Shown here piece by piece: positions 19,406 through 61,004 of a stretch of DNA of 64,000 bases (the first letter of the stretch is position 1; the number at the start of each line of letters is the position of its first letter). Source of the stretch: Nostoc sp. NMS9 (GTDB lineage Bacteria > Cyanobacteriota > Cyanobacteriia > Cyanobacteriales > Nostocaceae). The notes beneath the pieces are model-generated. The model did no database searches. It saw only the letters and a list, made by a program, of their open reading frames with translations, and was not told the origin of the DNA. Where the stretch lies: assembly GCF_017114995.1 (NCBI RefSeq), contig NZ_JABXKL010000019.1, forward strand, positions 1 through 64,000, given 5' to 3'. The position numbers and the translations under genes were made by a program.

Positions 19406-20446
19406 TTATTCTAAATCTATAACTTCTTGCGGTAACTCAAATAAACCATCTTTCCCAGCTTCAAAATCAATCACCTGATACACAGCATCAATATTTAACG
19501 CACCATAAATATGAGGAAATAATTCCCCTATTTCAGCAGGTTCATAGCGAATTTCAGCTTGGACTTTTTCAGAATCAATAAAAAGTAGTACCAATTCTTT
19601 TTGATTATCAAAAAATCTCTTTGCAACCTTGAGTATTTGCGTTGATTTTGAACAATGTATAAAACCTTCACTGTCTAACGAATCAGCGCGATATCTACCA
19701 AGATTTTTTGCTTGTTCCCATTGTTGGCGTTTGGTAATATGGAGAATGGTGTTCATAGAAAATCTAGGAATTTCTGCGTCTTGTAATATTTTCAGGAAAT
19801 CTTCTAAATTTGTAAAGTCTTTAATTACTTTTGTAGCGCCTACATTTTTTAATTTATTATCACCTATTCCAATAAAAGTAATATTCAACCGATAGGCTGC
19901 TTTTACATCCCAAACACCATCACCTACAAAAACAACTTTCTTAAATTTTTCAACTTGATAAATATTTTCTGCTTTGATAATAGCTGTCTTAATAATATCT
20001 TCTCGTGAATATGCATCATTAGCTGAAGCCAACGGAATACCTTCTATTTGTAAATTAGCTTTTTGAAGTTTTAATTTAGCAGACTCATGCCAAGCACCAG
20101 TTGCGATCGCAACACACCAATCAGGGTTTAGCTGTAATTTAGCTAATACGTTTGCAGAACCAGGAATTTCGCTGAATAAATCTTGCTTGTTAATAGATGC
20201 TTCCTGGAGTAGGCTAACAAAACGTGCTTTAAGTCTGAATAACTCTTCATCTGAAGGAAGACGTTTTAATTTTTCTTTGAAAATTTGCTGGGTGATGCCA
20301 GAATCTGTTGTGTATGTGTATTTAGTCCAATTCGTATTTATACCAAAAAGACCAAATTCCAATGCAAAAGCTTGTACAAAACAATTTTCATCAATTTTTT
20401 TGGTATTTGTTAGTGTACCATCAATATCAAAAACGACTAATTTCAT
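19406..20446 (-). CDS. HAD hydrolase fused to a DUF952 domain
   Basis: A two-domain protein of 346 residues. Residues 1-225 are a HAD-superfamily phosphatase of the phosphoglycolate-phosphatase type: DIDGT at 7-11 with the nucleophile D7, an ATGAWHE second motif, and GDGVWD for metal binding. Residues 231-340 are a DUF952 domain (HITKRQQWEQA, then ADSLDSEGFIHCS). The linker EIPRFSMN joins them in frame. The fusion is unusual: DUF952 proteins normally stand alone. A DUF952 fragment also occurs at 22233, showing this domain has been copied locally. Confidence 0.82.
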   Translation of the reverse strand: MKLVVFDIDGTLTNTKKIDENCFVQAFALEFGLFGINTNWTKYTYTTDSGITQQIFKEKLKRLPSDEELFRLKARFVSLLQEASINKQDLFSEIPGSANVLAKLQLNPDWCVAIATGAWHESAKLKLQKANLQIEGIPLASANDAYSREDIIKTAIIKAENIYQVEKFKKVVFVGDGVWDVKAAYRLNITFIGIGDNKLKNVGATKVIKDFTNLEDFLKILQDAEIPRFSMNTILHITKRQQWEQAKNLGRYRADSLDSEGFIHCSKSTQILKVAKRFFDNQKELVLLFIDSEKVQAEIRYEPAEIGELFPHIYGALNIDAVYQVIDFEAGKDGLFELPQEVIDLE

Positions 20447-20541: not shown

Positions 20542-22056
20542 CTATAAATTCGGTGGAATACAAACATCTGGCGCACATAAACCAGGAAATTGAAGCGTTA
20601 TTACTTCAAAAGTATTCAAATCTACGCGGCGGATAGCGTGGTTATTAGTATCACTAATATATAGATATGAATCCATAGCACTCAATCCTGAAGGTTCAAA
20701 AAAACGAGTGTTCTTACCCTGCCCATTTTGTAAACCAGCAGAACCATCTCCCAAAACTGTTTGACAATTCCCACTGGGATTTACTAATTTAATTTTATGG
20801 TTATAAGTATCTGCCACCCACAAAAAATTCTGAGCGTATTCCACTCCTAAACAGTGTTGTAAACGGACATCTTCACCTTGTCCATCTACATCGCCAAAAC
20901 CAAATAAACCGCCACTACCGCAAACAGTTCTTACTTGGTACGGTTCGACAATTCCAACACCACGAATTGAACTAACTTCACTGTCCGCAATATATAATTC
21001 ATGCCCATTATTAGTAATACCGCTAGGTTGGGCAAAGGCAGATTCGGTAAGTGAACCATCAATACACGCTTCTGCACCAGTACCAGCATAAGTTTTGATG
21101 ATGCCAGTTTCTAAATTCATTTGCCAAATTTGATGCGCCCCAGCCATTGCAATAAATAGGGTATTTTCTACTTTCACTAAATCCCAAGGGGAATTCAGTG
21201 CGGTTTCTAACCCAGCACCGCCATGAGGATGGATATTGCGGCTTTGTTCGCCAGTTCCCGCAATAGTTTCGACTATTTGGCGCTTTAAATAAACTCGCCG
21301 CAGCGCATGATTTTCTGTATCAGCAACGTAAAGAATGTGATTTTCGGCATCAAATGCCATTCCTTGCGGTGCAAAAAATTGCGCTTCGTTAAAAGCACCA
21401 TCGGTTAAGCCAGATTTTCCAGTACCAATTAAATGTAGAATTTCTCCGTCAAAACTACTTATAACTAGGCGGTGATGTCCAGAGTCAGCGATAAACAAAC
21501 CTGCTTGAGTAGCCAGAACTTTACCAGGAAAAGCTAAAGGTGTGATTAATGGTTGGCGCTGTTTTTCTAAAGTCAAGCTGATTTCTTGGAAATTAATTGT
21601 GCCTTTGTTTTGGTGTTGCTGAATTAACTTTTGAATCAACTCGTCTAAAGCGTCACGATTTCCTTCACCAGAAATCTGGCCAATCACATAACCTTCTGGA
21701 TCAATAATTATTAACGTAGGCCAAGCACGCACAGTATACTCTTCCCAAATCCGAAAACCGCTGTCAACTACAACAGGATGTTCAATGTCGTAGCGGAGGA
21801 TGGCTTGGCGAATATTTTCTGTTTCTTTTTCGTTATCAAATTTGGCGGAGTGAACGCCGATAATAGTAAGACTATCTTTATATTTTTGTTCTAAATATTT
21901 CAGGTTTGGTAGAATATGCAGACAATTGATACAGCAGTATGTCCAAAAGTCTAAAATTACGACTCTACCTTTGATTTGTTTAAGAGACAATGGTTTATCG
22001 GTATTGAGCCAAGAGTAATTTGGTGGTAATTCTGGCGCTCTTACACGAGAAATCAT
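20542..22056 (-). CDS. Thioredoxin-like domain with NHL beta-propeller (NHLRC2-like)
   Basis: A 504-residue protein. Residues 1-150 form a thioredoxin/TlpA-like domain with the redox motif C42-I-N-C45 in FWTYCCINCLHILPNL. Residues 170-490 contain repeated NHL blades (GLFIADSGHHRLVI, LYVADTENHALRRV, LYIADSEVSSIRGV, LWVADTYNHKIKLV, LYISDTNNHAIRRV), predicting a beta-propeller. The order matches the NHLRC2 family of bacteria and animals. There is no signal peptide. A thiol-redox scaffold role is likely, but the substrate is unknown. Confidence 0.88.
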   Translation of the reverse strand: MISRVRAPELPPNYSWLNTDKPLSLKQIKGRVVILDFWTYCCINCLHILPNLKYLEQKYKDSLTIIGVHSAKFDNEKETENIRQAILRYDIEHPVVVDSGFRIWEEYTVRAWPTLIIIDPEGYVIGQISGEGNRDALDELIQKLIQQHQNKGTINFQEISLTLEKQRQPLITPLAFPGKVLATQAGLFIADSGHHRLVISSFDGEILHLIGTGKSGLTDGAFNEAQFFAPQGMAFDAENHILYVADTENHALRRVYLKRQIVETIAGTGEQSRNIHPHGGAGLETALNSPWDLVKVENTLFIAMAGAHQIWQMNLETGIIKTYAGTGAEACIDGSLTESAFAQPSGITNNGHELYIADSEVSSIRGVGIVEPYQVRTVCGSGGLFGFGDVDGQGEDVRLQHCLGVEYAQNFLWVADTYNHKIKLVNPSGNCQTVLGDGSAGLQNGQGKNTRFFEPSGLSAMDSYLYISDTNNHAIRRVDLNTFEVITLQFPGLCAPDVCIPPNL

Positions 22057-22164
22057 AAGTATCCTTTGCTAAAGTTAGCTCATCAGTTTAACTTTAAATT
22101 TAGAGCAATTTTCCTCAGAATTTGCTGCCTTGATACACAGTTATTACACAATAAGTAAATAAGG

Positions 22165-22231
22165 TTAGATGAGGTAATGCTGGCATGCTGGCTTCAGTGC
22201 TATTAACACACTCAACAGCCGATCAAGTGAT
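22165..22231 (+). pseudogene. Glutaminase gene fragment
   Basis: Bases here match the plus strand of the glutaminase gene near 29854-29912 (ttagatgaggtaatgctgg, gcttcagtg, ttaac-c-ctcaa-agcc), with a small duplication of atgctggc. Only some 65 bases remain. It is a displaced fragment of a second glutaminase copy or a recombination product. Confidence 0.65.
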
Positions 22232-22720
22232 CGTTTTTGACTATCTGCGTTGCTTTTGAACAGTGAATAAAGCCTTCAGTATCGAGTGAATCATTCATTT
22301 CTGAATTGAGCTTCTTTTTCCCAATCTTGTTCGTGTTTTTTGGGACTGATATCGGAGGAACATTGTGCTTCCCAAGCTTGTAGTAAAGGATGCCATTTGG
22401 ATAAAAGCGGACGCAATCCTCGGTTGAGGACAGCGATCGCAATTCCTCCCACTGACTCACGAGATCCACCGATATCGGGCCCTGCGTCTTTGAGGATTTG
22501 TCGGTAGTGTTAAACAGGCTGTGTAAGGATGAAAGTACTTCTCGTAACAATCCTTGGTCTTGTTCGGAATCAAGAGGTTGAATGGCAATGCGGGTAACAA
22601 GTTCTACATATAGCGAGTCGCCTTACGTTCTGTGGAGTCGGGTTCTCATTCTGTCCCACCAATATCAAAGGGGAAGTTAACAGATACTTTCTTTAATTTT
22701 GCTGGATTTGGTTTGGGCAT
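22212..22720 (-). pseudogene. Broken gene downstream of the TIR gene, fused to a DUF952 fragment
   Basis: On the minus strand an ATG at 22720 begins MPKPNPAKLKKVSVNFPFD, then reaches TGA where a tryptophan would fit (GGTE-stop-EPDSTERK). Readable protein continues in other frames: YVELVTRIAIQPLDSEQDQG, then ILKDAGPDIGGSRESVGG, IAIAVLNRGLRPLLSKWHP. So at least one stop and two frameshifts are present. I recall a conserved cyanobacterial protein of this type beside TIR/GTPase genes. The last part, NDSLDTEGFIHCSKATQI (about 22233-22292), is a DUF952 piece. It starts 34 bases after the stop of the TIR gene, as a second operon gene would. Confidence 0.72.
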
Positions 22721-22754
22721 CGGTAGATTTCTGGGTTGATGGTGGGGTTGATTA

Positions 22755-25736
22755 TTAGCAATTGAGTGAATTGATATCTATAATTACTTGTATTAGCTTT
22801 TCTAAAGGTTCCTTCTCATAAACATTCTCAACAAAACGTACCCAATTTAATTCCTTGAGAAATAGTAGCCTTGGATGATTTGGGATCTCAGTAACACCGG
22901 GTAACAAAACTGGAATTAAAGGCAGACCTTCGTTAACCCGTCGGTTGGTCAATAATAACAATTCTTCTTGTTGCCATTTTCCCAAACCATTAAGACTAAT
23001 AAAGAAAGCACCAGATTTAACTTGCTGGATTCCTTTCTGTATAGCATCTTGAAAGCTCTTTCCGGCAGGAATCGCCTTTTTATCCAGCCAGGGATTCAAA
23101 CCCCGCTGTCGCAGTTGGTTAGCGATTGCTTCTATTAGAAGTTCGTCTTTACTATTGTGAGATAAAAAGACATCAAAATCATTGGTGGCAACTTTGCCTT
23201 GAATGATAGAAGTAGCTGTGTCAATCTCACGCTGCTTATCAGCCGCTTTATCCATCTGCGGAGTCATCACAGTCTGATCTGCTGTCAGGCGTTCCTCACC
23301 ATCTAGTAGGGAAATACGAGTGTCGCAGACGCTACAATTAATCCAGTTATTGCGCTCTCGCCTGCGTATCGCTTGTAATTCACTAACTGGTGTTTTGCAG
23401 TCCGAACAAACAAAAATGCGGCGGCGACGGATACTTTCTGGCAAAGCTCGCCGCTTCAGGTGGGTATGCACGTACTCTTCAAAGTGCAGCCTTGTCTCCT
23501 CACTCGCTTTTGGCTTAAAGAACAGAGTTAACTCCGCTTTTCCTTCCTCAATATGGCGCAGCCAGATGCCACACTCTCCGACCTTGGCTGTGAACATAGC
23601 AGCATTTTTCCACATTTCTTTGCGTTTAAAAATTTCGCTGCGAGACAAACGTACTGCCAAAGTGGTATACACATTTAATACAGCCCCCTCAAACTCAAAA
23701 ATCACCGCTTTCCCTTCAGGATCGGGAGCTTCTGGCCATTCGCGGGTGAACTGGGAGGGGAAAACCAGCTCAGTCTGCTCTCGCAAAGCAATTTCACGAG
23801 TTAATAATTCTTTTACCGTGGCAATTAACAGCAATTTCTCCTGTTCTTTATCGGCGATGCGTTCATCTTGTGGCATCCGAAACTGCCCCGCGAGTACCTT
23901 TTCTTCGACAATACAACCCATACCCTCTGGTTCATCTTTGGCGGCGTTTACAATTGCTGAGGCGTAAGCATCCAATAGTTCCGGTTGCAAAAGAATTAGA
24001 TTGCCAAAGCTGAGTCTACGGATTAAATCCCGCGACTCCACTAGCCGAATGCAAGTTTCAAACTTGTCTCGCACTTCTTTGGAATCAGCAAGAGCATTGT
24101 TGCTTTGCAAGAAGGCACGGCACAGGTCATCTACTTGAGATAACAGCCTTTTTGATTTTTTTTCTTGAATTAAAAAAACTTTGATTTTCTGAAATAGTTC
24201 TGTAGAAATTACCTTTGGTAAATCCTCCCAGTCAATAGCGTTGCAAATGACTGTAGCTAGTTCCTTGATTCCCAATCCTTCCTTGGCGCTAGTCTCAAAG
24301 TAACCATCAAAACCAAGTTCGCTAACTAAAGTATTGATGCGTGCCTTAGAAACACCGATGCTACCCCGATCTACACGGGCGGATACTAAAAATTTTTTCA
24401 AAGCGATCGCGGAATTACCTGGCAAATTTTGTGCTTGCCGTAAGGCACGGTTCCAGTAATAGACTCCTGCAAAAGGATCAGTTTCACTGCGCGCATCAAA
24501 TACAATCAAGGCGATCACTACTTCATTCAAATGTAATTGGTGAATCAAACGATAACCAGGCTGTCCTGCTAAGTCCCATAACAGTATTTCCCGCAATTCT
24601 TTGCGATCGTCACCTAGCTGCAACTCCTGTGTGTCGAAAGTCCAAACATGACGACCGTGAGTTGATTCTGTAGGGACAAACTTTTGATTAGTCAGCACTA
24701 AACTCAATCCCGACTTACCTACACCACTCTCACCCACAAGTACTACCTTGGCGTTTCTGTATAGATCAGAGGGATTAGTAGGAGACGTATTCAACATAAC
24801 TTTCGCGTCGATTTTCCAAATACGGATAACGGTGTCCGCTTCCCCCAGAGTCGCCAAGATGGGTTTTGTTGGGTGAAAAGCTAACCCAAAAGGCAGTGAT
24901 TTAGAAGTTGCTTCCTTCAGCACTGTCAAAGTTTCCCAAGGATCGAAGTGCCAGAGACGAACAGTACCATCAGAAGATTTAGAAGCCAGAAATTTACCAT
25001 CATGAGAGAATTCCACACAATTTACCGATCCTGTATGTCCTTCCAATACAAATAATGTCTGTACTGTCTGGGGATTCCATAGCCGAATTGTGTTGTCAAG
25101 AGAAGCTGATGCTAGTAGGGTTCCATCTGGTGACCATGCAACACTGTAAACATCACCAGAATGTCCTTTCAGAGTTTTTTTCAGTTGTTTTGTCTCTTTG
25201 TCCCAAAGACGAATCGTGCTGTCGTGAGAAGCAGATGCCAAGACTTTTCCATCTGGCGACCATACCAAACTATTTACTTGTCCTGAATGTCCTTCAATGG
25301 TTTCACTTTTTCTGGTTTTAATATCCATCAAATTAATCGACCAATCATCACCTGTACCACCAGCAGCAACTATCGTCTCATTCGGTGACCATGCCATACA
25401 CAAGCACACACCTGTATGCATGGAAGATTTTCGTATCAATTTGCCAGTATCCGTTCTCCAAACTCGAATGGTATTATCAGCCGAACCGGAGGCAATATAT
25501 TGACTATCCGGTGACCAGACAATTGTCCAAACCCGTCCATTGTGTCCTTTAAGATTATGAATGCATTGACCAGTTTCTAAATTCCAAAGTTTAATTGTGC
25601 GATCAAATGATGCCGATGCCAATGTCTTGCCATCTGGTGACCATTCCACCCGACTAATTAACCCATCATGTCCGTAAAGCTTATATTTTAGTTCCCAACC
25701 AAAAGGTATTTCGCTGTCGCTGCCTTGATTTGTCAT
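22755..25736 (-). CDS. WD40-GTPase-TIR protein, candidate immune sensor
   Basis: A 993-residue multidomain protein. Residues 17-317 form a seven-bladed WD40 propeller with clear LASASxDxTIRLW repeats. Next is a Ras-like/ROC GTPase: P-loop GESGVGKSG near 333, DLAGQPG, and VSARVDRG in place of NKxD. A helical, COR-like region follows, then a zinc-ribbon (CSDC near 780, CSVC near 803). Residues 855-990 are a TIR domain (FDVFLSHNSKDELL, GKWQQEELLLL). The WQQEE segment holds the glutamate position used by NAD-cleaving TIR enzymes. The architecture, a repeat sensor with an NTPase switch and TIR effector, parallels NLR-type immune proteins. Function in phage defence is inferred. A divergent NACHT gene lies upstream, and a broken partner gene downstream. 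Confidence 0.85.
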   Translation of the reverse strand: MTNQGSDSEIPFGWELKYKLYGHDGLISRVEWSPDGKTLASASFDRTIKLWNLETGQCIHNLKGHNGRVWTIVWSPDSQYIASGSADNTIRVWRTDTGKLIRKSSMHTGVCLCMAWSPNETIVAAGGTGDDWSINLMDIKTRKSETIEGHSGQVNSLVWSPDGKVLASASHDSTIRLWDKETKQLKKTLKGHSGDVYSVAWSPDGTLLASASLDNTIRLWNPQTVQTLFVLEGHTGSVNCVEFSHDGKFLASKSSDGTVRLWHFDPWETLTVLKEATSKSLPFGLAFHPTKPILATLGEADTVIRIWKIDAKVMLNTSPTNPSDLYRNAKVVLVGESGVGKSGLSLVLTNQKFVPTESTHGRHVWTFDTQELQLGDDRKELREILLWDLAGQPGYRLIHQLHLNEVVIALIVFDARSETDPFAGVYYWNRALRQAQNLPGNSAIALKKFLVSARVDRGSIGVSKARINTLVSELGFDGYFETSAKEGLGIKELATVICNAIDWEDLPKVISTELFQKIKVFLIQEKKSKRLLSQVDDLCRAFLQSNNALADSKEVRDKFETCIRLVESRDLIRRLSFGNLILLQPELLDAYASAIVNAAKDEPEGMGCIVEEKVLAGQFRMPQDERIADKEQEKLLLIATVKELLTREIALREQTELVFPSQFTREWPEAPDPEGKAVIFEFEGAVLNVYTTLAVRLSRSEIFKRKEMWKNAAMFTAKVGECGIWLRHIEEGKAELTLFFKPKASEETRLHFEEYVHTHLKRRALPESIRRRRIFVCSDCKTPVSELQAIRRRERNNWINCSVCDTRISLLDGEERLTADQTVMTPQMDKAADKQREIDTATSIIQGKVATNDFDVFLSHNSKDELLIEAIANQLRQRGLNPWLDKKAIPAGKSFQDAIQKGIQQVKSGAFFISLNGLGKWQQEELLLLTNRRVNEGLPLIPVLLPGVTEIPNHPRLLFLKELNWVRFVENVYEKEPLEKLIQVIIDINSLNC

Positions 25737-26237
25737 TTGAATTTTTTATACCGCCAATTAAGTAGTAAAATTTGCATTCAAAAACATATCCAAAGTGTGC
25801 TATGCACATATCTAGCTGATTGACTGGATTTCCGAGAATATATATTAGCTATGCAGTATTCTTTTGTCCTCGGTTCAAGGATTTATAGATGAAATAGTTG
25901 TTATTAGTATCAGAGAAGACTTCTATTTTATCTGATTATATAATTTTTAACGGATGACAATGGTTTGTATTATGTGATTTTTCTTAATAAGATGCTTAAT
26001 CATTTTTATAAATTTTTATAAATGCTTTTTTGGGAAACAAAAGGTAATTAGCGGCAATTAGCGGCAATTTATTATAGATATTCTTTTTTCAGACTAAGAT
26101 TAGAAATAGTGCAATTGAAAAGTAATCAAAATCATGTTTGTTAATTAATTTGTAATTTTGCGGAAAAATAAAATTATAATTGGAAGTTGTAATAGGGCGT
26201 TGATTCTTGCATAATCCAGAACCAGGGGAATTCTATA
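25737..26237. promoter_or_regulatory. AT-rich divergent promoter region
   Basis: About 500 very AT-rich bases separate the divergent TIR and NACHT genes and should hold both promoters. Tandem agcggcaatt units occur near 26051-26069. No gene, operator or defined -10/-35 pair was recognised. Confidence 0.45.
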
Positions 26238-26318
26238 ATGGACAAACTAAGCTCAATGTATCACAAAGAGCAGTCTTTATCTTTATCCAAACTTAAAATC
26301 AGCCAAAAGGAGGAAGAG

Positions 26319-28685
26319 ATGGCAGCAATTCAAGTGGAACAAGAGATTTTTCAATTATTGAGACAAGCATACTCTGAAAAATTTGGAAGTTCACCAAGTT
26401 CTTTAATTAATAGGTTAAACCATCTCTTTAGAGAAGAATTAATAGATGAAAGCGAGAATCTAATTGCAGATCGAACAATTCGTGCTTTTTTTAATTCTTC
26501 TGTGCCTCCAAAAATGCAAGAGAAAAATCTTAATTACTTATGTAGTGTACTTTTAGACCAAACAAGCTATAGAGAAGCGTTAAGGCAACATATTAATATT
26601 AAGTCCGATCTGGAAGGAGATTGGCTAGATCCTTACTGGAAGCATCTCGATAGAAAGTGCAAAACGATGCGGGTATTGGATATGAATGAACCAATACTTA
26701 TAGATAGCATTTATGTGAGATTTAATATTCTTAAAAATATTCAAGGACGTAGGCAGCAAACTATTCAGTATTTACTAAATAGTAGTTTAGAAAATGAGCC
26801 TAATAATAAAACTGTTAAACGCTTCCCTTTTTCGGGGAATGAAGAGCATGTGCCAGCATTAGAAGCTGCAATTCAACACCGGAAACTCATGATATTAGGA
26901 AAACCAGGAGCAGGTAAGACAACATTCTTAAAATATTTAGCTATTCATTTTCCAGCCGAAAAATCCAAGGAGAATATTATACCAATTTTTATTGCTTTGC
27001 GAGATATATCAGATAATGAAAGAAAAATTAGTTTAGTAGATGCATTAATTCAAGAATTTACTAATTATATTCCTAACTCAGAAAATACTGTTAGGAAGTT
27101 ATTAGAACGTGGACAGTGCTTAATTTTATTAGATGGCTTGGATGAAATAAAAGCGGACAATAATAATATTTGTCGCCAAATTGATCAACTTACCGAACAA
27201 TTTCCAGATAATCGATTCATAATTACTTGCCGAAGTGCAGCTTGTGATTATGTTTTTAATAATTTTACAGAAGTAGAAATTGCAGATTTTGAACGTGAAG
27301 AGATCGAGATATTTGTAAGAAATTGGTTTCAAGCTCGTGGAGAGCAAAATATTTGCGATCGCTTTCTAGAAAAATTAGAAGAAAATCAACAAGTTAAAGA
27401 ATTAGCAACAAATCCTTTATTGTTGACAATTTTATGTTTGACCTTTGAAGATAACTACGATTTTTCCAGCAATCGCTATGGATTATATGCAGATGCAGTA
27501 GATACTCTTTTGAGAAGATGGGATGCTAGTCGTCGCATAGAACGTCAACCTAATTTTCATCTATCACGGCAGCGAAAAATTAATATGTTTAGTGAAATAG
27601 CTTATGAAGGATTAAGTCATAAACCTCCAAAATTTTTATGGACACAGTGGGAATTACAAGACCAAATTGCTAAATTTTTGAAAAATGTTAATTTCGAGAT
27701 AGACACTCAGCAAATTCTCAAGCTCATTGAAGCTAACTATGGATTACTAATTCAGCAAGCTAAAGGTATTTATTCTTTTTCTCATTTAACTTTTCAAGAA
27801 TATTTTGCTGCTGAATATATAGTAGAGAACCGCCAACCGGAATTTTTTAAAGCTTTTGTTGAACAAAACCTCTTAGAACAACAATGGCGAGAAGTATTCA
27901 TTTTAATTACTGAAAGATTGAGAAATGCGGATGAATTTTTAAAATTGATGTTTAGATGTATCAATGACATTGTAAAAAACAGTCAAGAATTACAATCTAT
28001 GCTCAAGTGGCTACATAAGATGACTGTTGATGCTGATATTTCATCTAGTGGGTGGAGAGCTTATTACTTAGCTATTGATTTAGACGTAGAACTTTATATT
28101 AGTCAAGACATTCAAATTGAACGCCCTCTTTTTGGTAAATTGGCAACAGAGTTGAGAAATTATAATAAAAAAAATAAAAAATTAACTCGTCCGCAACCAA
28201 AGGCTTTACTCATTTCTCGATTAGTAGCTATTCATGCTTTAGCTATAGATCGCGCTAATGGTAAACATGTTCAAAAAACTGATTTTACCCGTCAACGCTT
28301 AGAATTTAGTGACGATTTGGATATAGATATTAATAAAAAACTAAGTTTCGCAATTGAGAAAGCAAAAGAAGTAAAGATAACTGATTTAGTTAGCGAATTG
28401 ATAGATTTACAAGGTCGTTATCCTGCTATTGATGCTTCTAGCTCAGAATGGAAAACATGGGCAGAATATCTGCAACAACTTATGGTTACTCATCTTGATG
28501 TTGGTTACAGCATTGATCTGCCAGCAGATGATGTTAAAGCTTTAGAGGAATATATTTATGCAAATTATTTACTACTAGAGTGTATTTCTGGAGAGAATAA
28601 TTCCTCGAGAAGCCTGAGAGATGCAATTATTGATAATTTGCTACTACCTCAAGATGAAATTCCAACTCATTTATTAAGTATTTGA
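26319..28685 (+). CDS. NACHT-domain STAND NTPase
   Basis: A NACHT ATPase of about 790 residues. Walker A is GKPGAGKTTF (near residue 221 counting from the upstream ATG 26238), Walker B is LILLDGLDEI (near 295), followed by FIITCRS. The segment TMRVLDMNEPILIDSIYV before it is typical of cyanobacterial NACHT proteins. The N-terminal helical region (EIFQLLRQAYSEKFG) has no recognised effector. The C-terminal part is helical with no WD40 or LRR repeats. ATG 26319 is preceded by AGGAGG at ideal spacing; ATG 26238 is an alternative. Related bacterial NACHT proteins defend against phage, so immunity is the leading inference. The gene is AT-rich, suggesting transfer. Confidence 0.85.
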   Translation: MAAIQVEQEIFQLLRQAYSEKFGSSPSSLINRLNHLFREELIDESENLIADRTIRAFFNSSVPPKMQEKNLNYLCSVLLDQTSYREALRQHINIKSDLEGDWLDPYWKHLDRKCKTMRVLDMNEPILIDSIYVRFNILKNIQGRRQQTIQYLLNSSLENEPNNKTVKRFPFSGNEEHVPALEAAIQHRKLMILGKPGAGKTTFLKYLAIHFPAEKSKENIIPIFIALRDISDNERKISLVDALIQEFTNYIPNSENTVRKLLERGQCLILLDGLDEIKADNNNICRQIDQLTEQFPDNRFIITCRSAACDYVFNNFTEVEIADFEREEIEIFVRNWFQARGEQNICDRFLEKLEENQQVKELATNPLLLTILCLTFEDNYDFSSNRYGLYADAVDTLLRRWDASRRIERQPNFHLSRQRKINMFSEIAYEGLSHKPPKFLWTQWELQDQIAKFLKNVNFEIDTQQILKLIEANYGLLIQQAKGIYSFSHLTFQEYFAAEYIVENRQPEFFKAFVEQNLLEQQWREVFILITERLRNADEFLKLMFRCINDIVKNSQELQSMLKWLHKMTVDADISSSGWRAYYLAIDLDVELYISQDIQIERPLFGKLATELRNYNKKNKKLTRPQPKALLISRLVAIHALAIDRANGKHVQKTDFTRQRLEFSDDLDIDINKKLSFAIEKAKEVKITDLVSELIDLQGRYPAIDASSSEWKTWAEYLQQLMVTHLDVGYSIDLPADDVKALEEYIYANYLLLECISGENNSSRSLRDAIIDNLLLPQDEIPTHLLSI

Positions 28686-28752
28686 GCTTTTATTAAGCAT
28701 ATTTTAGACAGAACCTTACCTGATATCTTGCACCATTCTCAATAAGCTCCGA

Positions 28753-28810
28753 GTGGACACTGCACATAAGGTAAATATAAGGGTTTGACCGAAAATTAGG
28801 CAGTGTCCAC
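28753..28810. repeat. Inverted repeat with 11-bp arms
   Basis: gtggacactgc at 28753-28763 pairs perfectly with gcagtgtccac at 28800-28810, loop 36. It lies 70 bases after the NACHT gene stop in a 314-base gap. It could be a terminator-like structure or a miniature-element remnant. Confidence 0.7.
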
Positions 28811-28999
28811 CCTACGAAAATCGTGATAACTTTATAAATAACCTTTCAATAGAGTTAATTTATGTGTATAATTAAATACAATTTAACTGTTATTTGAGGA
28901 AAATGCCGCTTATTACCGCTTGTTGCCGCATATTGCCATAAGAGTTTATACTTAAGTAAGCATTCTGATACGCGTCTGCAAGTAAGGTAAGGCTTAGTT

Positions 29000-29197
29000 A
29001 TGTCGAAGAAAGACAATAACACTAAACAACCTGTAAAATTCTGCAACCACAAACCTGGCGACCCCTGGGAAGAAGAAGGTTGTTGTGGAGAGTTAGAAGC
29101 AATTAATCAGCTTCAAGGAAATCAGATAGTTAATGAAGAAACTGGAAAACTAACTCAACAAGCTGAAGAAGATAATTTTAGTCAGATACTAATTTAG
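29000..29197 (+). CDS. Small hypothetical protein with Cys/His motif
   Basis: A 65-residue reading frame: MSKKDNNTKQPVKFCNHK, then PGDPWEEEGCCGELEAINQL and an acidic, glutamine-rich end. The C-x-H plus CC arrangement could bind a metal, but no family is recognised. There is no strong ribosome-binding site. It ends eight bases before the miniature element at 29205. The gene call rests on open length and sensible composition only. Confidence 0.4.
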   Translation: MSKKDNNTKQPVKFCNHKPGDPWEEEGCCGELEAINQLQGNQIVNEETGKLTQQAEEDNFSQILI

Positions 29198-29204
29198 TAA
29201 GGTA

Positions 29205-29338
29205 ACGCCGTGTGCGACTTTATCTCAAGCCTAACCCCCAACCTCTTCCCTACGAGGGAGGGGGAGCAAGAATCGAAGCCTCTCCCCGAAACAGAGAGAG
29301 TAATGGAAGCGGGATTCCAAGAATAAGTCGCACATCGC
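29205..29338. mobile_element. 134-bp MITE-like element with 8-bp direct repeats
   Basis: Terminal inverted repeats include tgtgcgactt at 29211-29220 and aagtcgcaca at 29325-29334, continuing imperfectly outward. The element is flanked by identical GTAAGGTA octamers at 29197-29204 and 29339-29346, the expected footprint of a target-site duplication. It carries no gene and lies immediately upstream of the glutaminase gene. Confidence 0.8.
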
Positions 29339-29357
29339 GTAAGGTACTTCTTGTATC

Positions 29358-30305
29358 TTGTTAAAAAAACCTCTGCATCTTGCATCACTGTTGAAAAGAC
29401 TTACAAGATTAACTAATACTGAATTATTAGCTTGCATACAGCAAACCACATCCCAGGCTGACCAAGGAAAAGTAAGCGATCGCATTCCGCAACTAGCTTT
29501 AGCCGATCCTGGTTGGTTTGCAATTCATATCTGCTGTAAATCGGGGAAAAATATCAGCTTTGGCGATACAGCTTGTGTCTTCCCGCTAATGAGCGTGATT
29601 AAGACATTTTCTCTACTTTATCTGCTAGAACATCTAGGAGCAGAAAAGGTTTTCGGGTGGGTTGGGGTTGAACCATCGGATGCACCCTTCAATTGTTTAG
29701 AACAATTAATTAGCGATCGCGGCTATCCCCGCAACCCCATGATTAATAGTGGGGCAATTACTTTGTCTGATAAGTTACCAGGAAAGGACGCGAACGAACG
29801 CACTCTTTTATTTTGTCAATGGCTCAACCAATTAGCAGGTTGCCAACTAGATTTAGATGAGGTAATGCTGGCTTCAGTGAGATTAACCCGCTCAAAAGCC
29901 AATGAAGCGATCGCTAATTATCTCGCCCAAGCTGGTCATCTAGAAAATATTGAAATAGCACTTGACACTTATGAGCAAATATGCTGTCTATCTGGGCGAG
30001 TTGAAGATTTAGCTCTGTTAGGAAAACTCTTAGCTTTTGACAATGGCTGTATATCACCACAAAACCGCCGAATTGTCAACGCTGTAATGTCAACTTGTGG
30101 ACTGTACGAAGCTTCTGCCGAGTTTGCCGTCAAAATTGGTCTACCGATGAAATCTGGGATTGGTGGTGGACTTTTGGCAATAGTACCAGGAGAGGGAGCG
30201 ATCGCTTGTTATAGTCCAGCTTTAGATAGGGTAGGAAATCCGGTAGCAGGACTTGTTTTTGTTGAGGCTCTAGCACAAGAGTTACAGTTGAGTATCTTTG
30301 GGTAA
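29358..30305 (+). CDS. glsA: Glutaminase (serine-dependent, GlsA type)
   Basis: Hydrolyses glutamine to glutamate and ammonia; beta-lactamase-like fold with a Ser-x-x-Lys pair. The pair is S79-V-I-K82 in FPLMSVIKTFSLLYLL, with NPMINSGAI and MSTCGLYEASAEFA following. Length is normal for the family. The start is uncertain: no ATG fits. TTG 29358 gives the longest form and TTG 29391 (MKRLTRLTNTELL) begins where relatives usually begin. The miniature element ends 20 bases upstream, so the native promoter may have been displaced. Its 3' end overlaps the convergent kinase gene by 24 bases. Confidence 0.9.
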   Translation: MLKKPLHLASLLKRLTRLTNTELLACIQQTTSQADQGKVSDRIPQLALADPGWFAIHICCKSGKNISFGDTACVFPLMSVIKTFSLLYLLEHLGAEKVFGWVGVEPSDAPFNCLEQLISDRGYPRNPMINSGAITLSDKLPGKDANERTLLFCQWLNQLAGCQLDLDEVMLASVRLTRSKANEAIANYLAQAGHLENIEIALDTYEQICCLSGRVEDLALLGKLLAFDNGCISPQNRRIVNAVMSTCGLYEASAEFAVKIGLPMKSGIGGGLLAIVPGEGAIACYSPALDRVGNPVAGLVFVEALAQELQLSIFG

Positions 30306-34516: not shown

Positions 34517-36775
34517 ATGACAATAAGTCCTCCGGAGCGAGAGGAAAAACAGGCAAGAATAATCGTCGATAACGACCCGGTTCCTACCTCTTTCGAGAGA
34601 TGGGCACAACCTGGGCACTTTGACAGATCCTTAGCCAGAGGTCCAAAAACCACCACATGGATTTGGAACCTGCACGCACTCGCCCATGATTTTGATACAC
34701 ATACAAGCGATTTAGAAGACATCTCCCGCAAGATATTCTCAGCCCACTTCGGCCACCTGGCTGTAGTGACCATCTGGTTGAGCGGGATGATTTTCCACGG
34801 CGCGAAGTTTTCTAACTACGAAGCTTGGTTAAGCGACCCGTTAAACGTTAAGCCAAGTGCTCAAGTTGTTTGGCCCATTGTCGGGCAAGACATTTTAAAC
34901 GGTGATGTTGGCGGTGGTTTCCACGGTATTCAAATCACCTCCGGTTTGTTCCAAGTATGGCGTGGCTGGGGGATTACAAACTCCTTCCAGCTTTACGTAA
35001 CTGCGATCGGTGGATTGGTATTAGCAGGCTTGTTCCTATTTGCCGGCTGGTTCCACTACCACAAGCGCGCTCCCAAACTGGAATGGTTCCAGAATGTGGA
35101 GTCGATGCTGAATCACCACTTGCAAGTACTGCTAGGTTGTGGTTCCTTGGGATGGGCAGGTCACTTAATCCACGTGTCCGCACCGACCAACAAGCTTTTG
35201 GATGCAGGCGTTGCTCTCAAAGACATACCCCTGCCCCACGAGTTCATCTTGAACAAAGACTTGTTGACCGAACTGTACCCTGGCTTTGCAGCTGGTTTAG
35301 CACCTTTCTTCACCTTGAACTGGGGTCAGTATGCTGACTTCCTTACCTTCAAGGGCGGTCTGAACCCGGTAACAGGCGGCTTGTGGTTGACTGATATTTC
35401 TCATCACCACTTAGCGATCGCAGTTCTCTTTATCGTTGCTGGTCATCAGTACCGTACCAACTGGGGTATTGGTCACAGCATTAAAGAGATCCTAGAAAAC
35501 CACAAAGGTCCTTTCACCGGTGAAGGTCACAAAGGTCTCTACGAAAACCTGACCACATCCTGGCACGCTCAGTTGGCTACTAACTTGGCCTTCTTGGGTT
35601 CGCTGACCATCATCATCGCGCATCACATGTACGCGATGCCCCCCTATCCATATTTGGCAACTGACTACGCTACGCAGTTGTGCATATTCACTCACCATAT
35701 TTGGATCGGTGGCTTCTTGATTGTTGGTGGAGCGGCTCACGCTGCTATCTTCATGGTGCGGGATTACGATCCAGTTGTGAATCAAAACAACTTGCTGGAT
35801 CGGGTGATTCGTCACCGTGACGCGATTATTTCTCACCTGAACTGGGTGTCTATTTTCCTCGGCTTCCATAGCTTTGGACTTTACATCCACAACGACACAA
35901 TGCGTGCATTGGGTCGTCCTCAAGACTTGTTCTCTGATACAGGGATTCAATTGCAGCCAGTATTTGCCCAGTGGATACAAAATATTCACGCCTTGGCTCC
36001 TGGTACAACTGCACCCAATGCCCTAGAACCAGTTAGCTATGTCTTTGGCGGCGGTATATTGGCTGTTGGCGGTAAAGTGGCAGCTGCACCCATTGTTTTG
36101 GGCACAGCGGACTTCCTAATTCACCACATTCACGCTTTCACCATTCACGTCACCGTCCTAATTTTGCTTAAAGGTGTGCTGTACGCCCGTAGCTCTCGTC
36201 TGATTCCAGACAAGGCAAACTTGGGCTTCCGCTTCCCTTGCGACGGCCCCGGTCGTGGCGGTACCTGTCAAGTATCTGGTTGGGATCACGTATTCCTCGG
36301 ACTCTTCTGGATGTACAACTCCATATCGATTGTAATTTTCCACTTCAGCTGGAAGATGCAATCAGATGTATGGGGAACCGTAGATGCAGATGGTACTGTA
36401 ACTCATATCACTGGTGGTAACTTCGCCCAAAGTGCAATTACCATCAACGGTTGGTTGCGAGACTTCTTGTGGGCACAAGCTACACAAGTCATCAATTCCT
36501 ATGGCAGCGCGCTATCTGCCTATGGTCTACTCTTCTTAGGCGCTCACTTTGTCTGGGCATTCAGTTTGATGTTCCTGTTCAGTGGTCGCGGCTACTGGCA
36601 AGAACTGATTGAGTCCATTGTTTGGGCGCATAACAAACTGAAGGTAGCACCAGCAATTCAGCCTCGCGCTCTGAGCATTATTCAGGGTCGGGCTGTAGGG
36701 GTAGCTCACTACCTCTTGGGAGGAATTGCCACAACTTGGGCATTCTTCCATGCACACATCCTTTCAGTAGGGTAG
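34517..36775 (+). CDS. psaA: Photosystem I P700 apoprotein A1
   Basis: One half of the photosystem I reaction-centre heterodimer in the thylakoid membrane, carrying P700, chlorophylls, phylloquinone and half the Fx ligands. The 752-residue length is standard, with eleven hydrophobic spans rich in histidines. [18 protein letters not shown] (C575 and C584) supplies two of the four Fx [4Fe-4S] ligands. The N-terminus [15 protein letters not shown] is typical. A strong AGGAGG precedes the ATG. psaB follows after 145 bases. Confidence 0.98.
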
Positions 36776-36788
36776 CAATCAGCTGCAT

Positions 36789-36875
36789 TGAGTTATGAGT
36801 TATGAGTGCTGAGTGCTGAGTTTAAGAAATAGTTTTTAGATTTAAAACTCCTAACTCCTAACTCCTAACTCGTGT
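36789..36875. repeat. Heptamer repeats between psaA and psaB
   Basis: Tandem gagttat/gagtgct heptamers (about 36790-36822) and aactcct heptamers (about 36849-36872) fill most of the psaA-psaB spacer. The two tracts are complementary, so the transcript could fold across them. Confidence 0.8.
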
Positions 36876-36920
36876 AAAGCTGGTATTTGATGGCTAAAGG
36901 TCAGAGGATTTATTAAACCT

Positions 36921-39146
36921 ATGGCGACAAAATTTCCGAAATTTAGCCAGGATCTCGCACAGGACCCGACGACTCGTCGGATATGGTATGCGATCGCTAC
37001 AGGCAACGATTTTGAAACCCATGATGGCATCACAGAGGAAAATCTTTACCAAAAGATTTTCGCAACTCACTTCGGTCACTTGGCAATCATCTTCCTGTGG
37101 GCATCCAGCCTCCTGTTCCACGTAGCCTGGCAAGGTAACTTTGAACAGTGGATTAAAGATCCCCTTCACATCCGTCCCATCGCCCACGCGATTTGGGACC
37201 CCCACTTCGGTAAACCAGCGATCGAAGCTTTTACCCAAGCTGGCGCTAGCAATCCGGTAAACATTACCTACTCTGGTCTCTACCACTGGTGGTATACCAT
37301 CGGAATGCGGAATAACGGCGAACTGTACAACGGTTCAGTGTTCTTGTTGTTATTCGCAGCTGTATTCTTGTTTGCTGGTTGGCTGCACTTGCAACCCAAG
37401 TTCCGTCCTAGCTTGGCATGGTTTAAGAGCGCTGAACATCGTCTAAACCACCACTTAGCAGGTTTGTTTGGTGTTAGTTCTTTGGCGTGGGCTGGTCACT
37501 TAATTCACGTTGCTGTCCCCGAAGCTCGCGGTCAGCACGTAGGTTGGGATAACTTCCTGAATACCCCACCCCACCCAGCAGGTTTGACACCATTCTTTAC
37601 AGGCAACTGGGGTGTTTACTCTCAAAACCCTGACACTCCTGGACATATCTTCGGGACATCGCAAGGTGCAGGAACTGCAATTCTGAGTTTCTTGGGTGGT
37701 TTCCATCCCCAGACAGAAGCTTTGTGGCTGACTGACATAGCTCATCACCACTTAGCGATCGCAGTTCTATTCATCATTGCTGGTCACATGTACCGGACAA
37801 ACTTTGGGATTGGTCACAGTCTCAAGGAAGCCTTGAATGCCAAGAATTTCTTTGGTATTCCTGTTGAAGGCCCGTTTAACCTACCTCACCAAGGTATCTA
37901 CGACACCTACAACAACTCCCTGCACTTCCAATTGGGATGGCACTTAGCAGCGTTAGGTGTTGTCACTTCCTGGGTAGCGCAGCACATGTACTCCATGCCT
38001 TCCTACGCATTTATTGCGAAGGACTACACAACCCAGGCAGCGTTGTACACGCATCACCAGTATATTGCTGGATTCTTGATGCTTGGTGCTTTTGCCCACG
38101 GAGCAATATTCTGGGTGCGTGATTACGATCCAGAGCAAAATAAGGGCAACGTTCTTGAGCGCGTGCTGAAGCACAAAGAAGCGATTATTTCCCACCTCAG
38201 CTGGGTATCCCTTTTCTTGGGCTTCCACACCCTTGGTCTTTACGTCCACAACGACGTAGTAGTTGCTTTCGGTACTCCTGAAAAGCAAATCCTGATTGAG
38301 CCAGTGTTTGCCCAGTTCGTCCAAGCTGCTAACGGTAAAGTACTGTACGGTTTAGATACCTTGCTATCTAACCCAGATAGTATTGCTTACACAGCATGGC
38401 CCAACTACGCTAACGTCTGGTTACCAGGCTGGTTAGATGCCATCAATGCTGGTACTAACTCCCTGTTCTTGACAATTGGCCCTGGCGACTTCTTGGTACA
38501 CCATGCGATCGCCTTAGGTCTGCACACCACCACCTTGATCTTGGTCAAAGGTGCTTTGGATGCCCGTGGTTCTAAGCTGATGCCCGATAAAAAGGACTTC
38601 GGCTATGCCTTCCCTTGCGACGGACCCGGTCGTGGCGGTACTTGCGACATCTCAGCATGGGATTCCTTCTACCTCGCTACATTCTGGATGCTCAACACCC
38701 TTGGTTGGGTTACGTTCTACTGGCATTGGAAACATCTAGGTATTTGGCAAGGCAACGTAGCTCAGTTCAATGAGAACTCTACATATCTCATGGGCTGGTT
38801 CCGCGATTACCTCTGGGCTAACTCTGCTCAGTTGATTAACGGTTACAACCCCTACGGCGTGAATAACCTATCTGTCTGGGCTTGGATGTTCCTGTTTGGA
38901 CACCTAGTTTGGGCTACTGGCTTCATGTTCTTAATCTCCTGGAGAGGTTACTGGCAAGAGTTGATTGAAACCCTTGTTTGGGCACACGAACGCACTCCTC
39001 TAGCTAACCTAGTTCGCTGGAAAGACAAGCCCGTGGCTCTGTCTATTGTTCAAGCTCGTGTAGTTGGTCTAGCTCACTTCACTGTTGGCTATGTCGTAAC
39101 TTACGCCGCGTTTTTGATTGCTTCTACTGCTGGTAAGTTCGGTTAA
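36921..39146 (+). CDS. psaB: Photosystem I P700 apoprotein A2
   Basis: The second half of the photosystem I core. It has 741 residues with eleven spans. [18 protein letters not shown] (C566 and C575) gives the other two Fx ligands. The opening [20 protein letters not shown] is typical of the family. It is read with psaA and ends 30 bases before a strong terminator. Confidence 0.98.
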
Positions 39147-60905: not shown

Positions 60906-60954
60906 GTAAAGAGGGCATGGGGCATGGGGCATTGGGAATTGGGCATTGGGCATT
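60906..60954. repeat. Heptamer repeat tract (gggcatt)
   Basis: Tandem ggggcat/gggcatt heptamers upstream of the WD40 gene. Confidence 0.8.
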
Positions 60955-61004
60955 AGTTATTTCCCCTCTGCCCTAATGTCTCCTCTGCACAAGAACAGCT
61001 TGTT

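Follow-up and report, generated by a model that had tools for sequence, protein, structure and literature searches.

A conserved TIR–NACHT gene pair in Nostoc sp. NMS9, tentatively read as a NACHT–S75 gene-control circuit with a docked TIR module

The window examined here (that is, the whole stretch of 64,000 nucleotides at positions 1 to 64,000 of contig NZ_JABXKL010000019.1, assembly GCF_017114995.1) belongs to the 8.1-Mb genome of the cyanobacterium Nostoc sp. NMS9, in which its source contig is labelled C92. It carries two divergent genes that encode a WD40-Roc-TIR protein and a NACHT protein, together with a small gene, S75, and two arrays of short tandem repeats (Table 1). A previous reading from the letters alone (hereafter, the sequence-only reading) had presented positions 22165..28685 as a TIR/NACHT immunity island whose genes diverge from one AT-rich 500-bp spacer. 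Both open reading frames (ORFs) are present and intact, with Pfam domains and base composition in agreement, but the left part of that stretch (22294–22744) is a pseudogene and the spacer is probably longer than proposed. The gap is 501 bp between the ORFs as they stand (NACHT ORF 26238–28685, 815 amino acids), yet the true NACHT start is most likely 26319, given that AAGGAGG lies 5 bases upstream of it and that relatives' NACHT genes also begin there, which would make the spacer 582 bp. The G+C content is 28% in 25750–26249 and 38–49% in 500-base windows over 22750–25749 (41% in the last one). No RNA family reached its gathering score in 22000–29400, and no tRNA was found within the window.

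Both proteins are switch-type NTPases, as had been claimed, each with an intact P-loop. In the WD40-Roc-TIR protein, Pfam recognizes WD40, Roc (PF08477, 1e-14), Ras and TIR_2 (1.3e-19), and the WQQEE glutamate region highlighted earlier is retained at residues 921–925, with E925 as its one invariant residue among seven aligned relatives (the window's protein included) and among 29 homologs. The NAD hydrolase AbTIR (8g83) aligns with the TIR domain (E 2e-8) such that E925 lies opposite the glutamate of AbTIR's W-x3-E motif, which we take to be the catalytic residue, and the gene is probably an NAD-consuming, immune-type TIR gene. The catalytic-type glutamate is present in 10 of the 12 main TIRs of the paired loci described below and lost in genomes G448 and G449; as a second TIR with the glutamate is encoded at both of these loci, selection appears to preserve the catalysis. 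This second TIR is a separate gene directly downstream of the glutamate-less one (L136 and L137), and G442 also has a second TIR gene, with both TIRs intact.

The sequence-only reading had proposed profile searches for TIR, Roc, COR and NACHT, of which all but COR were matched. As in Roco/TIR proteins (LRR-Roc-COR-TIR or WD40-Roc-TIR), a long region and then a C-terminal TIR come after Roc, and the part between Roc and a set of four cysteines is long, conserved and situated where COR would be; however, it gave no Pfam match to COR and no PDB match under E 0.3, whereas COR-A and COR-B are clear in four Roco proteins of the same genome. Profile comparison with these four aligned in register, at a score (18.5) within the shuffled range (10.3–24.8). 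Three LRR-Roc-COR-TIR proteins (L147, L148 and L150) are also encoded in this genome. The WD40-Roc-TIR architecture is widespread (2,212 of the 7,993 candidates scored are homologs with E no worse than 1e-3), and a search of plasmid records with the protein returned one match (58% over 80%).

The NACHT protein has the features of NACHT-clade STAND (signal transduction ATPase with numerous domains) NTPases, namely a NACHT domain, Walker A and a DGLDE-type Walker B, and Pfam recognizes NACHT (1e-18) and NCH2 (3e-16). Its N-terminus was folded separately, as structural matches to the full-length model barely covered it, and the model with its faint structural matches hints at a helix-turn-helix (HTH) domain. 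Sequence searches with this N-terminus returned no consistent Pfam match among homologs (the best single-member match, at E 0.0009, was to an unrelated domain of unknown function (DUF)), nothing below E 0.06 in the PDB and no effector family that recurred in more than 3 of the 30 N-termini compared (E up to 5). The best characterized homolog found is the presumed XssQ, a STAND transcription activator on pSYSM of Synechocystis sp. PCC 6803, here WP_011153595.1, which we identified by gene order only and in which NACHT and NCH2 are recognized as well. The two proteins have homologous NACHT-NCH2 bodies (30% identity, E 5e-79, residues 110–780 of 788, that is, 85% of the length; profile comparison E 8e-62) and N-terminal domains of similar size, with no detectable similarity between their N-terminal sequences. 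PMC8205485 describes XssQ as a gene activator with an N-terminal HTH and with single or tandem sites upstream of the genes that it regulates; unlike the system described here, it regulates exopolysaccharide genes through the target AAGTTXXAC. On the strength of this homology, we read the NACHT protein as a putative signal-gated transcription factor. Its best match in the plasmid records is 41% identical.

The pair is conserved and co-inherited. Among the first 79 genomes (the host's own included), close orthologs of both genes occurred elsewhere only in G001, taken as Nostoc sp. NMS2 and the closest relative of the host that carries the island. A TIR search of 217 Nostocaceae genomes at E 1e-180 gave 20 places in 17 genomes, with close copies in 13 genomes (the window's and 12 orthologs 66–81% identical), and in all 13 the NACHT gene lies divergently adjacent, so that the two genes, far from never being neighbours in relatives, are regularly found together. 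In this sample the TIR gene of G395 is broken across the ends of two contigs, and the G486 genome has 38% contamination. TIR and NACHT distances correlate across 12 loci (G395 left out; Mantel r 0.976, p 0.0002), which, together with the unbroken pairing, argues for more than a chance association. No NACHT gene was found in the stretches read around five more distant TIR copies (55–58% identical), which lie in G446, G500, G013 and G033 and on the window's own contig, the last being a second, longer homolog (57%; G000:C92:230187-232601, L059); one further match (40%) lies in G449.

The surroundings of the island vary. HAD-DUF952, NHL and glutaminase genes flank it in NMS2 and the window, whereas the flanks in G463 (taken as Calothrix sp. 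NIES-4105), G418 and G395 differ from these and are common to those three. Of 49 NHL loci, 30 were fetched; a divergent glutaminase gene adjoins in 22 (starts 15–1,314 bp apart), and the remaining eight, the window included, have none within a 1.5-kb flank. The island in the window thus sits between genes that are usually neighbours. At its left edge, 77 bases (22157–22233) match the interior of the NMS2 glutaminase gene (77%), perhaps a rearrangement scar. The window's copy is also a mosaic: TIR residues 451–993 resemble NMS2 (synonymous divergence, dS, 0.19–0.41), while the NACHT gene is closer to G496 (dS 0.63 versus 0.93), and the same holds for the part of the spacer with the array.

Together with S75 and the repeats, the NACHT gene forms a core that the sequence-only reading had overlooked. 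S75 ORFs of 52–87 amino acids share about 15 conserved residues, and a profile built from 14 of them detected S75 in 36 of the 217 Nostocaceae genomes, at one locus each (16 already seen and 20 fetched after the profile search), with an extra partial copy beside the main one in G448. At all 36 loci S75 has a NACHT gene next to it, with an identity of at least 39% to that of the window or of G025; S75 is on the opposite strand in G523, and 23 of these genomes have no close TIR ortholog. Outside the Nostocaceae, both genes occur in G068, G218 and G291, and the eight best NACHT matches among 388 genomes of the order (E 1e-130 or better) are all accompanied by S75. Of 291 candidates from a large protein database, 32 proved to be S75 homologs, and wherever a source was named it was a cyanobacterium. 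No DNA-binding fold was recognized for S75 in Pfam or the PDB, the latter search being empty at E 10. This distribution reads as that of a NACHT–S75 core on which TIR modules dock as optional outputs.

The repeats have a 10-bp unit with the consensus CGGCAATTAG. Each of the 13 paired loci has one array in its spacer (matrix score 16.7–46.7) and another, oppositely oriented, ahead of S75 (20.7–46.3), with the next best site in these loci at 6.8 or less. A strict three-unit pattern had six matches in 53 Nostoc genomes (four genomes), all at NACHT–S75 loci, against none for the reversed control. With a matrix trained on 16 loci (cut-off 14), the 20 loci outside the training set yielded array B 14 times and array A 11 times, and across all 39 loci array B occurs in 32, array A within 1 kb of the NACHT gene in 26 and both in 24, compared with three arrays with a score of at least 15 in 764 kb of other sequence. 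In 18 of 32 loci, array B is followed by an exact TATACT no more than 45 bases away (shuffled rate 2.6%), always 37–39, 48 or 58 bases from the start of the array, which is one repeat phase; the loci are related, and these counts are thus not independent. As judged from spacing and motifs, array B and TATACT have the layout of a candidate operator over a −35 region. Within 60 bases of array A towards the TIR gene, a −10 box (TATA[C/A]T) was found in one of 14 loci listed, possibly G449. Shared control of the pair, as the sequence-only reading had suspected, gains a candidate element, conserved in the spacer of every paired locus.

Table 1 Features of the TIR–NACHT–S75 locus (positions in the window)
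Feature	Position	Strand	Basis or remarks
DUF952 coding scrap fused to end of T169 pseudogene	22236..22316	-	27-residue match (67%) to HAD-DUF952 gene 19406-20446
T169 pseudogene, three pieces in different frames, stop in one, 3' end missing	22294..22744	-	tblastn
WD40-Roc-(COR-like region)-four-cysteine motif-TIR protein, 993 aa	22755..25736	-	ORF, Pfam, alignments
TIR domain, residues 856-982; E925 codon 22962-22964	22791..23171	-	Pfam, alignments
Four invariant cysteines C777, C780, C801, C804 (possible zinc site)	23325..23408	-	7-sequence and 29-sequence alignments
Roc GTPase domain, ~residues 328-494, P-loop GESGVGKS	24255..24755	-	
AT-rich divergent spacer, 582 bp with revised NACHT start	25737..26318	.	
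Array A, tandem 10-bp repeats AGGTAATTAG CGGCAATTAG CGGCAATTTA, 277 bases before NACHT start	26042..26071	+	
NACHT-NCH2 STAND protein, 788 aa (ORF open from 26238)	26319..28685	+	Pfam, start analysis
N-terminal five-helix, HTH-like domain, residues 1-98	26319..26612	+	Model, weak structural matches; conserved in 30 homologs
Array B, 10-bp tandem repeats oriented opposite to array A, upstream of S75	28899..28928	-	
TATACT, -10-like box, 18 bases after TTGCCG (28923-28928) of last repeat	28947..28952	+	
S75, 65-aa Cys/His-rich ORF	29000..29197	+	C15, H17, G20, W23, G27, C28, C29 invariant in 14 homologs

Given these observations, we tentatively favour, at slightly less than even odds, a model in which the island consists of a core (an XssQ-like NACHT protein, S75 and two repeat operators) and a docked WD40-Roc-TIR module. 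In this scenario, a signal would open the NACHT protein, which would then oligomerize, its HTH-like N-terminal domains lining up on neighbouring 10-bp repeats, one for each turn of the DNA. Bound in this way, it would switch on S75 and act on its own spacer, and the TIR gene is probably drawn under the same switch because it is transcribed away from array A. The WD40 propeller may sense, Roc may gate and the TIR domain may consume NAD as a cell-sacrificing response, which in intact relatives would be accompanied by a protein that we call T169 and a nucleoside-deoxyribosyltransferase-like protein, or by a second TIR. Such a system might serve phage defence or controlled death. More speculatively, and with less confidence than in the model itself, NACHT, S75 and the iterons could represent an undescribed two-gene cyanobacterial system in which a triggered NLR-like protein polymerizes on its own helically phased repeats as a transcriptional counterpart of the inflammasome, with S75 as the built-in output and TIR, deoxyribosyltransferase-like and membrane modules as interchangeable executioners.

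There is precedent for parts of this mode of action: according to PMC5859096, BldC, a regulator of 68 residues, forms cooperative multimers on direct repeats one helical turn apart, and MalT is described as a STAND transcription factor in PMC6468293. Both likenesses concern mode of action.

The layered-immunity pair that the sequence-only reading had in mind survives as a conserved, co-inherited unit and is recast here as a gene-control circuit to which a TIR module is attached. In its classical form, with NACHT as an NLR-type sensor or executioner, the TIR protein as a second effector, a layout that keeps the genes together and some other factor bound to the repeats, we consider the pair unlikely, although it is the strongest of the alternatives. 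The NACHT protein shares its STAND fold with the bNACHT antiphage proteins, and some of these likewise have no discernible N-terminal effector according to PMC12169576; the same paper gives bNACHT25 and bNACHT32 an N-terminal nuclease and NCH1, compared with NCH2 and an HTH-like N-terminus here. Against the classical pair stand the lack of a shared effector family among the NACHT N-termini, the closeness to a presumed transcription activator, and the strict link to S75 and promoter-phased repeats, which it leaves unexplained. That 23 of the 36 genomes with NACHT, S75 and repeats have no close ortholog of the TIR gene also speaks against two equal defence layers.

Alternatively, S75 itself could be a cooperative, repeat-binding autoregulator, with NACHT as its signal-gated partner or target. 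S75 is linked to the repeats as strictly as NACHT is, and BldC provides a precedent for a small protein on helically spaced direct repeats, but with only some 15 conserved residues and no DNA-binding fold recognized in Pfam or the PDB, S75 seems an improbable candidate. Less plausible still is that the arrays are the ends of a mobile cassette carrying NACHT rather than operators. The inverted arrays on both sides of NACHT at the paired loci, the flanks that vary between hosts and the mosaic window copy would fit such a cassette; however, in G025, G490, G433 and G426 NACHT is preceded by both arrays, which flank S75, and array B keeps a fixed phase with the −10 box (transposase genes were not searched for). 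That the window's copy is a decaying remnant whose two intact genes no longer cooperate, as the broken T169 and the missing deoxyribosyltransferase-like and membrane genes might imply, is very improbable, given that the ratios of non-synonymous to synonymous substitution (dN/dS) against NMS2 (TIR 0.21, NACHT 0.23) fall inside the range of four flanking genes (0.09–0.29), that both arrays and S75 are intact and that G496 has the same TIR–NACHT–S75 set.

Comparison with Thoeris did not place the locus in that system: ThsB profile matches were only partial (4.5e-6 or weaker), and no SIR2, SLOG or macro domain of the ThsA type was found in the four neighbouring ORFs scanned (at least 100 amino acids, up to 30305) or in the T169, enzyme, membrane and S75 genes of relatives. 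Plant paired NLRs such as RRS1/RPS4 are also encoded head to head, as switch-protein genes with a shared intergenic region (PMC9528088); they differ from the pair here, which combines a Roc GTPase with NACHT, and the likeness is one of analogy only.

We found no description of the NACHT–S75–repeat system or of the WD40-Roc-TIR/NACHT pair in the titles and abstracts of the open-licence papers listed by our literature searches; the parts are known, with S75 as a new small partner and a system-specific candidate operator. If the docked-module model is correct, a bacterial NLR relative would act as a transcription switch for a TIR effector and link regulators of the MalT/XssQ type with immune NLRs, and the circuit may decide when the neighbouring immune-type TIR gene is used. 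The long-open role of cyanobacterial NACHT proteins would become directly testable, because the circuit is small, the predicted binding sites are exact and, in the family searched, no genome has more than one S75 locus.

Around this core, the accessory genes differ between loci. Behind the TIR gene, seven of the 13 paired loci encode T169 (165–178 amino acids, no Pfam domain) and a nucleoside-deoxyribosyltransferase-like protein (PF15891), and three encode a second, separate TIR; behind the NACHT gene, eight have a membrane-type protein of 350 amino acids, for which a weak, below-cut-off match to a Na+/H+ antiporter came only from the relative in G291. The deoxyribosyltransferase-like and membrane genes are absent from the window, the intact set of which (TIR, NACHT and S75) recurs in G496, and its T169 pseudogene survives in pieces 83–93% identical to the intact NMS2 gene (tblastn). 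In Calothrix sp. NIES-4105, two partial-DUF4365 ORFs and one Pfam-less ORF lie between TIR and T169 (L062:13045-14136).

T169 is probably a dedicated, unnamed partner family of many cyanobacterial TIR proteins, as gene neighbourhoods suggest. In the 79 genomes, 21 of 22 near-full-length T169 genes adjoin a TIR gene (G019 has the exception), most often a few bases ahead of one whose TIR is N-terminal and whose C-terminal part varies, and there are 1,388 homologs at E 0.001, with no Pfam domain in any of the 120 listed. In six genomes (L075, L077, L078, L080, L081 and L102), a truncated remnant of T169 lies in a comparable setting with no TIR gene, suggesting that the T169–TIR pair was lost repeatedly from one chromosomal site. 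We set aside the idea that T169 is an indispensable antitoxin, given a broken T169 beside an intact TIR gene here, although three other T169 genes of the genome might act in trans. The T169–TIR neighbours counted above are those at L083-L100, L053 and L055, and at G000:C97:37206, C31:298744 and C68:112326.

Elsewhere in the window, two stretches within 35381–38255 match each other's NMS2 counterparts at ~67%, suggesting a tandem duplication, and a short tandem repeat at 60913–60966 recurs in several of the fetched loci.

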